A stretch of 64,000 bases of DNA from assembly GCA_018821785.1 (NCBI GenBank), contig JAHJLI010000192.1:1-64000 (forward strand). Direction: 5' to 3'. Under the pieces are notes generated by a model. That model was given only the letters and a program-made list of their open reading frames with translations, was not told where the DNA came from and searched no databases. Positions 3,147-64,000 of the stretch are shown here, in pieces; position 1 is the stretch's first letter; each line of letters starts with the position of its first letter. A program made the position numbers and the translations under genes. This DNA is from Pseudomonadota bacterium (GTDB taxonomy: Bacteria; Desulfobacterota; Desulfobulbia; Desulfobulbales; Desulfocapsaceae).

Positions 3147-4673
3147 ATGAATGGAAGGCGCATTATTGTCACCCTCTTGTCAGTCATGATCGCCACGGCG
3201 GTAACCGGAAATCTTCAAGCTTTCGCAGTGGAGAAGAAAGCAAAAGAGCGGCTTGCGGTGCTCGATCTTGAAGCGAAACACGGCGTTGAAAAGAGCCTCG
3301 CCGAGGCGCTGTCGGTCATTGTCCGCGATAAACTCCATGGCTTTGGCGAATACGAGGTGATGAGCAAAGGGGATATCCAGGCGGTGGCGAGCCGGGAACA
3401 ACTGAAGCAGGCGCTCGGTTGCGATGAAGACGGCAGCCAGTGTCTGGTTGACTTCGGCCGGGCGATCGGTACGCGCTTTATGGTGGCGGGGGATATCTCG
3501 AAACTCGGCGCAACCTATATCGTAAGCCTTCGGATGCTCGATACCAAAGGCGAGGGTGCCAGCGTTAAGAATAGGGTGAGTGAAAGCTGCAAATGCGACG
3601 AGGATGCCTTGATCGGCACAGTGCAGGATGTGGCGGCCAAGCTGCTGGGTAAGCCGACTGCAAACGCTGCAAAAAAAATCGAAAACGAGGCCAAAAAGCT
3701 TGCTGAAGAAAAAAGTAACGAGGTAGCAGTTGAGCAAAAAAGGCTGGTCGAGGAGCGGCGCAAAACGAATGAGGAAAAGCACCGCCTGGCCGGTGAGGTT
3801 GAGAAGCTGAGAAAAAAGAAAGAACAGGCCACCCTTGTGGCGGCACAAAAGCGGGTTACAGCTGAAAGCAAACCCGCACTGGACTCTTCCTTGGTAAAAT
3901 CGTCCGCCGCAACCGGCAAAACCCATACCGATTCGACCACCGGAATGGAATTCGTTTTGGTTCCCGGCGGCTGTTTTCAGATGGGTGATACCTTCGGCGA
4001 TGGCAGTGACGAAGAGAAGCCTGTGCACGAGGTTTGTGTCGATGGTTTTTATATGGGCAAATATGAGGTGACGCAAGGTCAGTATCAGGTGGTGACTGGC
4101 AATAATCCATCGAACTTCAAACAAGGAAATAACTATCCGGTAGAGAAGGTGAACTGGAATGACGCTCAGAGTTTTATCCGTTTGCTGAACGGCAAGGGAA
4201 GCGGCAAGTACCGGTTGCCGACCGAGGCGGAATGGGAGTTTGCTGCCCGTGAAGGGGGCAAGAGGGTACGGTTTGGCACCGGTAAGGATACTATAGGACC
4301 GGACGAGGCAAATTTTGATGGGAGTGTGAGGTACAAAAAAACATACTCACGAACCGGAAACTATCGGGCGAAAACCGTTGCTGTGGGGAGCTTTCAACCG
4401 AACAGTCTTGGCCTGTACGATATGTCCGGAAATGTTTGGGAATGGTGCGGGGATTGGTTTGACAGCGGCTATTATGGTAAAAGCCCCCGGAATAACCCGG
4501 AAGGGGCACCATCGGGCTCGTACCGAGTGAATCGTGGCGGCAGTTGTTCCAGCAACCCGTGGTATGTGCGGACGGCCTACCGTCTCAAGTACTTGCCTGA
4601 TTACGCTAACAACTTCCTTGGTTTCCGGCTGGTCCTCCCAGTTCATCAATCGGACCCCCCGTTTGGTCGCTGA
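3147..4673 (+). CDS. Secreted CsgG/TolB-like domain fused to a formylglycine-generating-enzyme (SUMF1) domain
   Basis: The product has 508 residues. A signal peptide spans about residues 1-28 (ending LQAFA), which supports this start. Residues 32-170 resemble the CsgG/DUF4384-type 'integrated sensor' fold, with RLAVLDLEA and a conserved Cys pair near GCDEDGSQC. Residues 170-240 are a charged coiled coil rich in EEK and KRL. Residues 265-500 form a SUMF1/FGE-sulfatase domain: TGMEFVLVPGG, GSDEEKPVHEV, GKYEVTQGQY, YRLPTEAEWEFAAREGG, DMSGNVWEW and RVNRGGS, ending LGFRLVLP. SUMF1 domains have the C-type lectin fold and often bind ligands rather than act as enzymes. The last 35 residues of the fold look like a diversified region, and a perfect inverted repeat covers the stop codon. 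True formylglycine synthase activity is not implied. Confidence 0.8.
   Translation: MNGRRIIVTLLSVMIATAVTGNLQAFAVEKKAKERLAVLDLEAKHGVEKSLAEALSVIVRDKLHGFGEYEVMSKGDIQAVASREQLKQALGCDEDGSQCLVDFGRAIGTRFMVAGDISKLGATYIVSLRMLDTKGEGASVKNRVSESCKCDEDALIGTVQDVAAKLLGKPTANAAKKIENEAKKLAEEKSNEVAVEQKRLVEERRKTNEEKHRLAGEVEKLRKKKEQATLVAAQKRVTAESKPALDSSLVKSSAATGKTHTDSTTGMEFVLVPGGCFQMGDTFGDGSDEEKPVHEVCVDGFYMGKYEVTQGQYQVVTGNNPSNFKQGNNYPVEKVNWNDAQSFIRLLNGKGSGKYRLPTEAEWEFAAREGGKRVRFGTGKDTIGPDEANFDGSVRYKKTYSRTGNYRAKTVAVGSFQPNSLGLYDMSGNVWEWCGDWFDSGYYGKSPRNNPEGAPSGSYRVNRGGSCSSNPWYVRTAYRLKYLPDYANNFLGFRLVLPVHQSDPPFGR
4530..4630 (+). other. Candidate diversity-generating-retroelement variable region at the 3' end of the SUMF1 gene
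   Basis: In known retroelement targets of the SUMF1 family this segment reads as runs of Asn (AAC) in the template and as mixed residues in the diversified copy. Here the expected Asn positions carry TCC, AGC, AAC, TAT, TAC, CTC, AAG, TAC, TAC, AAC, AAC and TTC, as expected if adenines of AAC/AAT codons had been replaced. The framework residues RGGS, R.AYR, PD and LGFRLV are kept. No reverse transcriptase or template repeat was seen in the window, so this would be a remote or fossil target. Ordinary divergence of the family is the alternative. Confidence 0.4.
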
Positions 4674-4690
4674 ACTGGGAGGACCAGCCG
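4626..4690. repeat. Perfect 20-bp inverted repeat across the stop codon of the SUMF1 gene
   Basis: The left arm is 4626-4645 and the right arm 4671-4690, with 25 nt between them; the arms are exact reverse complements. The left arm encodes part of RLVLPVHQ and the right arm begins with the TGA stop. No U-tract follows, so it is not a standard terminator. Inverted repeats just after the variable region are needed by some retroelements. The remaining intergenic sequence to 5107 holds no recognisable gene. Confidence 0.8.
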
Positions 4691-31590: not shown

Positions 31591-31620
31591 TTAAAAGTCC
31601 GACGGGCGTCGGACTTTTAA
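31591..31620 (-). terminator. Rho-independent terminator after rpsU (possibly bidirectional)
   Basis: A perfect 13-bp stem (31591-31603 with 31608-31620) has a 4-nt loop and AT-rich arms giving U-runs on both strands. It lies 10 bp after the rpsU stop and between rpsU and the Xer gene. Confidence 0.8.
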
Positions 31621-51271: not shown

Positions 51272-51310
51272 TTTGAGGTTCTGCACGAGTTAGTTCGTAG
51301 TAAGGCATAA

Positions 51311-51347
51311 AAGCCCGGTGGAGGAAACTCCACCGGGCTTTTTTTTT
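51311..51347 (+). terminator. Rho-independent terminator after the porin gene
   Basis: A perfect 13-bp GC-rich stem (51311-51323 with 51328-51340) closed by a GAAA tetraloop is followed by a run of T residues. Confidence 0.95.
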
Positions 51348-63701: not shown

Positions 63702-64000
63702 TTAACGTATAAATATCAAAATAAAAACCGAGTTAGTGTTTATTGTTAACTCGGTTTTTATTTTAAGGGTTCTAAATCTACTTTGGCGAGCATGCATGCC
63801 GCCAGAGGCAGTATCAATTGAGGCCTGCCTTTTCCTGCGTCTGACTTCGAGTTGTCTCAACACTTCATCTTCGGCGAGATCCTTTCTCGGAAGAATCGAT
63901 TTCAGCATGGTTGCAACATCGGGACAGTTCAACAGTGTAATGTCGGGCTGGTGTCGTAACCTTTGCTTCAGCATGAACAGAACAGCAAAGCGAGCAGCAC
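63702..64000 (-). CDS. C-terminal part of an unidentified protein, perhaps a transposase, cut by the window edge
   Basis: The minus-strand frame is open to the right edge and reads AARFAVLFMLKQRLRHQPDI, then PDVATMLKSILPRKDLAEDE and LRQLEVRRRKRQASID. The last 30 residues run into the terminator and are probably not conserved. The pattern (LPRKD followed by an Arg-rich helix) reminds me of transposase C-termini, but I cannot assign a family. Confidence 0.4.
   Translation of the reverse strand, partial: AARFAVLFMLKQRLRHQPDITLLNCPDVATMLKSILPRKDLAEDEVLRQLEVRRRKRQASIDTASGGMHARQSRFRTLKIKTELTINTNSVFILIFIR
63718..63764 (+). terminator. Rho-independent terminator after the PEP-CTERM gene, probably bidirectional
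   Basis: Arms 63718-63735 and 63747-63764 pair over 18 bp. The core CCGAGTTA/TAACTCGG is flanked by A- and T-runs, so it can end transcripts from both sides. Confidence 0.85.

Follow-up and report, generated by a model that had tools for sequence, protein, structure and literature searches.

A probable orphan target of a diversity-generating retroelement in a SUMF1-domain gene of the Desulfocapsaceae

In the diversity-generating retroelements (DGRs) of phages, a hairpin made of a GC-rich stem of 7–10 bp and a 4-nt GRNA loop lies behind the variable repeat (VR), and the DGR of Bordetella phage BPP-1, with Mtd as its target, needs this hairpin (PMC3240598). Remote or incomplete DGR loci are known from Thiohalocapsa PB-PSB1, where targets without an adjacent reverse transcriptase (RT) or template of their own are diversified, some of them best explained by activity in trans (PMC10907252). 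The locus described here lies in the window, a 64 000-nt stretch of contig JAHJLI010000192.1 (assembly GCA_018821785.1, Desulfocapsaceae). As in BPP-1, a lectin-fold VR has an inverted repeat at its 3′ end. The 20-bp stem and 25-nt spacer differ from the 8-bp stem and 4-nt GRNA loop of BPP-1, and the repeat includes the VR end instead of lying behind the VR (PMC3240598); it is outside the canonical 7–10-bp GRNA-loop form. The BPP-1 DGR has its RT and template, whereas neither a DGR RT nor a template was found in the assembled genome of the window. The window target resembles those of Thiohalocapsa PB-PSB1 in having no RT or template of its own beside it, but the Thiohalocapsa genome has RTs and templates, and diversification was observed there in natural populations (PMC10907252).

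The target gene (3147–4673, + strand) is an open reading frame of 508 aa. Its product is made up of an N-terminal domain, likely with a signal peptide, a charged coiled-coil-like stretch and a C-terminal SUMF1 (FGE-sulfatase) domain with a C-type-lectin fold (3948–4634, + strand). In a profile search, PF03781 matched aa 268–496 with 190.7 bits, and by sequence match the domain corresponds to the Treponema DGR variable protein TvpA (2y3c, E 6e-23). A C-terminal lectin fold of the SUMF1 type, a feature of DGR targets, is present in this gene. A full-length orthologue with 57% identity over the whole length was found in the same genus (G001:C260). A wider scan of contigs gave no closer orthologue, only relatives from other phyla with at most 49% identity, and the phage proteins that matched were SUMF1 relatives with less than 60% identity. 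Two paralogues in the window's own genome (L054:2722–4416 on C25 and L055:3232–4332 on C123) have the N-terminal domain in common with the window gene, and their C-terminal domain is DUF1566-like, not SUMF1. Judged from these sequences, the three genes appear to combine a common sensor head with C-terminal domains that can be swapped.

A VR-like segment is formed by the 38 codons that lead up to the inner end of the inverted repeat (4533–4645, + strand; RGGSC...GFRLVLPVH), recognized by its pattern at AAC columns, by third-base retention and by the loss of similarity to the G001 orthologue. The preliminary description had noted substitutions concentrated at AAC-type codons, and this was borne out when the segment was compared with the template repeat (TR) of G048, a genome of the same order: changes at position 1 or 2 affected 8 of 9 AAC codons against 9 of 29 others (Fisher p = 0.005), and third-base changes 1 of 9 AAC codons against 16 of 29 others (p = 0.026), adenine specificity being judged here against templates from other genera and none of the genome's own. 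The raw count (13 of 25 A sites versus 26 of 89 non-A sites differing) is weaker (p = 0.055), as would be expected with the G048 template, which is from another family. Non-A changes are also present in the segment; for example, the usual W of RGGSW is a C. At the nine AAC columns, the first starting at 4548 and the last finishing at 4616, all nine window codons end in C or T, as do the variable codons in all RT-linked targets of G014, G075, G189, G129, G167 and G086. Such endings were also counted in 6/9 codons of a conserved ordinary SUMF1 group and in 7/9 of the window genome's own paralogue; the count by itself does not discriminate across phyla, is informative only with same-order controls and was rejected as sole proof of a DGR target.

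These changes might instead have arisen in an ordinary SUMF1 gene, by normal mutation and selection acting on ligand-facing loops and with no retroelement involved. Across many phyla, SUMF1 protein sequences vary in the same loops, and DGR machinery was not found in the assembled genome, as this explanation would have it; nonetheless we judge it distinctly unlikely. Bases 1 and 2 are changed in the window VR and third bases are retained. In the comparison with five targets of G024, the third base was kept in 65% of changed codons within the VR and in 33% upstream, and neither the genome's own paralogue on C35 nor ordinary SUMF1 genes showed an excess of third-base retention, although a few SUMF1 genes of uncertain DGR status likewise kept third bases at changed codons. 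The ordinary orthologues of the family (L033 and L035–L037, from different genomes) hold the segment almost invariant. The DNA alignment to the G001:C260 orthologue covers 3939–4546 and similarity is gone from 4547, at the start of the VR; residues differing from this orthologue number 20/32 in the VR segment versus 57/186 upstream (p = 0.001). Several of these VR tests rest on the same sites and are not independent of each other. Finally, the DNA of the VR end is common to a genuine template: the 3′ end of the window VR (the IMH region), CTGGTCCTCCCAGTTCA, agrees with template and target ends from G048 and G024, with the homology limit at TCA. Together, these patterns suggest past adenine-directed mutagenesis of the window gene.

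The reading of this SUMF1 gene's end as a DGR-type VR is well supported by genuine DGRs of the same order and genus whose VR ends resemble it. Of 258 genomes of the order, 17 encode an RT similar to the G048 DGR enzyme, among them one genome of the same genus (G014), and complete-looking DGRs with SUMF1 targets were found in seven genomes of the order, again with one from the same genus. In ten VR/TR pairs from the seven RT-bearing genomes, mismatches were located at 132 of 263 template adenines and at 5 of 697 other bases. The RT-linked systems of these genomes are genuine DGRs, and their VRs occupy the same SUMF1 segment. In G014 and G048, the RT adjoins an HRDC-domain protein and the template. 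The same-genus DGR (G014:C111) is complete, with HRDC protein, RT, template and two SUMF1 targets. It shares with the window a C-terminal SUMF1 target segment of equal length, the framework RGGSW...GFR, variable codons ending in C or T and a hairpin at the target. It differs in that RT, HRDC partner and template are present and adjacent, in its target end (GFRLARGH; GFRLVLPVH in the window) and in the start of its hairpin, about 37 nt after GFR, while that of the window starts inside the VR end. The G014 template was rejected as the source of the window VR because its 3′ end differs (GFRLARAQ). Template and target ends of the LVLP type, like that of the window, occur in the DGRs of G048 and G189 (GFRLVLP; CTCCCAG.TCA in G048), which belong to other families of the order and, unlike the window, have their machinery present; the G048 template end has a C (GCTCA) at the position of the window's T.

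Other genomes contain targets of the window's VR type, and in three of them (G024, G154 and G001) a DGR RT was likewise undetected. In G024, whose genome is 96% complete, five SUMF1 genes with VR-type ends (L039 and L040, on C32 and C125) form an orphan array larger than that of the window; variation among these five targets falls on 21/25 template-A columns and on 19/89 other columns (p = 1.6e-8), and neither a DGR RT nor a template was detected in the genome. RT fragments of G024 were rejected as DGR RTs, the C64 fragment carrying a group II-like QGGPLSPLLSN motif. G154 encodes caspase-like peptidases fused to SUMF1 with VR-type ends (PVHQQ; L211, minus strand, 3024–1054, and L212, minus strand, 1630–41). 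In a MAG labelled Singulisphaera, 1.7 kb separate a VR-like SUMF1 segment from a copy that resembles a template, RGGNWNNNSNNCRGSQRNNNNPNNANNNIGFR (L143:6541 and 8219); from its sequence, the pair is probably another DGR.

The window's own assembly is a draft of 315 contigs and is 94% complete. The preliminary description had proposed a remote or relic target and a whole-genome search for a near-copy of the segment and a DGR-type RT; neither was found in the assembly. The RVT_1 profile search returned three RTs, all rejected as DGR RTs because they score 305–401 bits against the group II intron family, above its curated cut-off of 300. For comparison, scores of 106–120 bits were obtained with the DGR RTs of G014 and G048. 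A DGR RT query of the 94% complete assembly gave nothing better than these three. DNA and degenerate-pattern searches of the genome for a template repeat matched the window alone, and the HRDC accessory of G014 had no relative there apart from a weak hit (1.5e-4) within a long reading frame. Missing machinery in a 94% complete assembly of 315 contigs falls short of proven absence. The preliminary description had named, as joint counter-evidence, absence of template and RT and a lack of excess variation at the AAC-type codons; the absence holds in the assembly, the lack does not, and an excess of the right kind was seen.

Since no machinery was found in a 94% complete assembly and the VR pattern is present, the window gene is best described as an orphan target, either a relic or served in trans. 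We regard it as probable, with good confidence, that it belongs to the DGR type of this order, with an HRDC-partnered RT and SUMF1 targets. Thus the orphan status proposed earlier stands, while the remote element was sought in the assembled genome and not found. We infer that the gene is at present a relic or is served in trans by DNA that the assembly lacks. A stricter version, in which the unassembled ~6% of the genome, or an unbinned plasmid or phage, carries a matching RT and template that still rewrite the gene in trans, appears rather unlikely. The draft state of the assembly and the trans activity described for Thiohalocapsa PB-PSB1 (PMC10907252) leave room for it, and a mobile helper would explain the three other genomes that hold the window's VR type without a detected RT. 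Nevertheless, template, RT and HRDC accessory were untraced in the assembly, and the VR end pattern had no match in viral contigs.

The inverted repeat consists of two arms of 20 nt (4626–4645 and 4671–4690, + strand) that are 100% complementary and separated by a 25-nt spacer (4646–4670). At distances up to 120, the window has no other perfect inverted repeat of this length. By chance, 5.5e-6 perfect 20-mer inverted repeats at spacers of 0–100 would be expected per window; in 20 simulated windows, none reached 14 nt. Folded as single-stranded DNA, it reaches −30 kcal/mol (z = −7.2 versus shuffles). No further copies of the arms were found in the window's own genome, and a dispersed repeat or mobile-element end was rejected because the arms are unique there. 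The repeat reported in the preliminary description is therefore real, has no second copy in the genome and greatly exceeds chance expectation. It spans the stop as had been described, although it begins inside the end of the lectin fold, at the R codon of GFR, and not behind it. The right arm opens with the stop codon TGA (4671–4673); in relatives, stops come earlier, as TAA or TAG after PVH or PVHQQ. Other perfect inverted repeats of 14–18 bp in the window lie at 51309–51342, which looks like a bidirectional terminator, 63718–63764 and 31591–31620.

The arms could be related to the VR by position. In G014, G075, G044 and G189, VR/TR homology stops directly after G[G/C]TCA, where targets have the G and templates the C, and the inner end of the window's left arm is GTTCA, the equivalent of this limit. 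The left arm is thus the IMH-like 3′ end of the VR, from which the right arm derives as an inverted copy; the DNA end of the left arm is common to the G048 template and the G024 targets. In G075 (C186; L064:3264–3559), the second and third targets stand tail-to-tail and their VR ends form a 61-bp inverted repeat with 55 matched positions, the contig ending within the third target.

Hairpins behind the stop were also compared between targets and templates. Stems of 20–24 matched bp were found at targets of G014, G075 and G167, and of 11–13 at those of G044 and G189; template stems in these DGRs have at most 10 matched bp. In G036 and in three of the five G024 targets, stems of 12–16 were found. 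The loci L108, L064, L229 and L231 (G014, G075, G189 and G167) have stems of 13–24 matched bp behind target repeats, whereas their templates have no such stems; these hairpins exceed in length those described for phage DGRs. Long target hairpins are thus frequent in the order without being universal, the G129 and G086 targets lacking a notable one. The hairpin or cruciform at the window's VR end may have served the homing machinery.

The repeat could, on the other hand, have nothing to do with a DGR. Template switching can create short perfect inverted duplications, and the repeat may be the product of a chance palindromic switch at replication, or an RNA 3′-end stabilizer; the hairpin sits at the stop codon, the usual place of mRNA-protecting hairpins, and the lack of notable hairpins at the RT-linked targets of G129 and G086 agrees with this. 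We consider this reading less likely than not. An unrelated repeat would hardly be expected to have its inner end exactly on the VR/TR homology limit, nor would long stems stand behind many RT-linked targets of the order and not behind templates. Moreover, the inverted repeat at the VR ends of G075 stems from two convergent targets. An intrinsic terminator was rejected, as a T-run is absent on both strands.

The simplest origin of the right arm, by analogy with G075, would be a second, tail-to-tail target of which all but the last 20 bp was lost; alternatively, the arm could come from a cDNA fragment or a template switch. That the arm is a fossil of failed homing, joined 25 nt behind the VR, is highly improbable in our estimate. 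Read on the + strand, the arm (TGAACTGGGAGGACCAGCCG) is nonetheless identical to the initial 20 nt of the cDNA that reverse transcription of the template end would yield, beginning at the VR/TR homology limit. If such a fossil were real, orphan targets would physically record the start site of DGR cDNA and sense-strand priming.

In the mechanism proposed for the orphan target, an error-prone RT would have copied a template repeat rich in AAC codons, with random bases at adenines, and the cDNA would have replaced the last ~113 bp of the window gene. Residues of the variable face of the SUMF1 lectin fold would thereby be shuffled, with framework and third bases retained. A second target would once have stood tail-to-tail with the gene, leaving the right arm.

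Orphan and remote targets escape surveys that start from the RT, so the repertoire of hypermutated proteins is undercounted; an RT-based DGR survey itself concedes missing such targets (PMC8144416). As this locus and its relatives illustrate, targets can be recognized from their own DNA: their variable codons end in C or T, their VR end is conserved and, in this order, many carry a long hairpin. Here the long hairpin marks the target and not the template, and a tail-to-tail pair like that of G075 would explain in a simple way how inverted repeats at VR ends arise.
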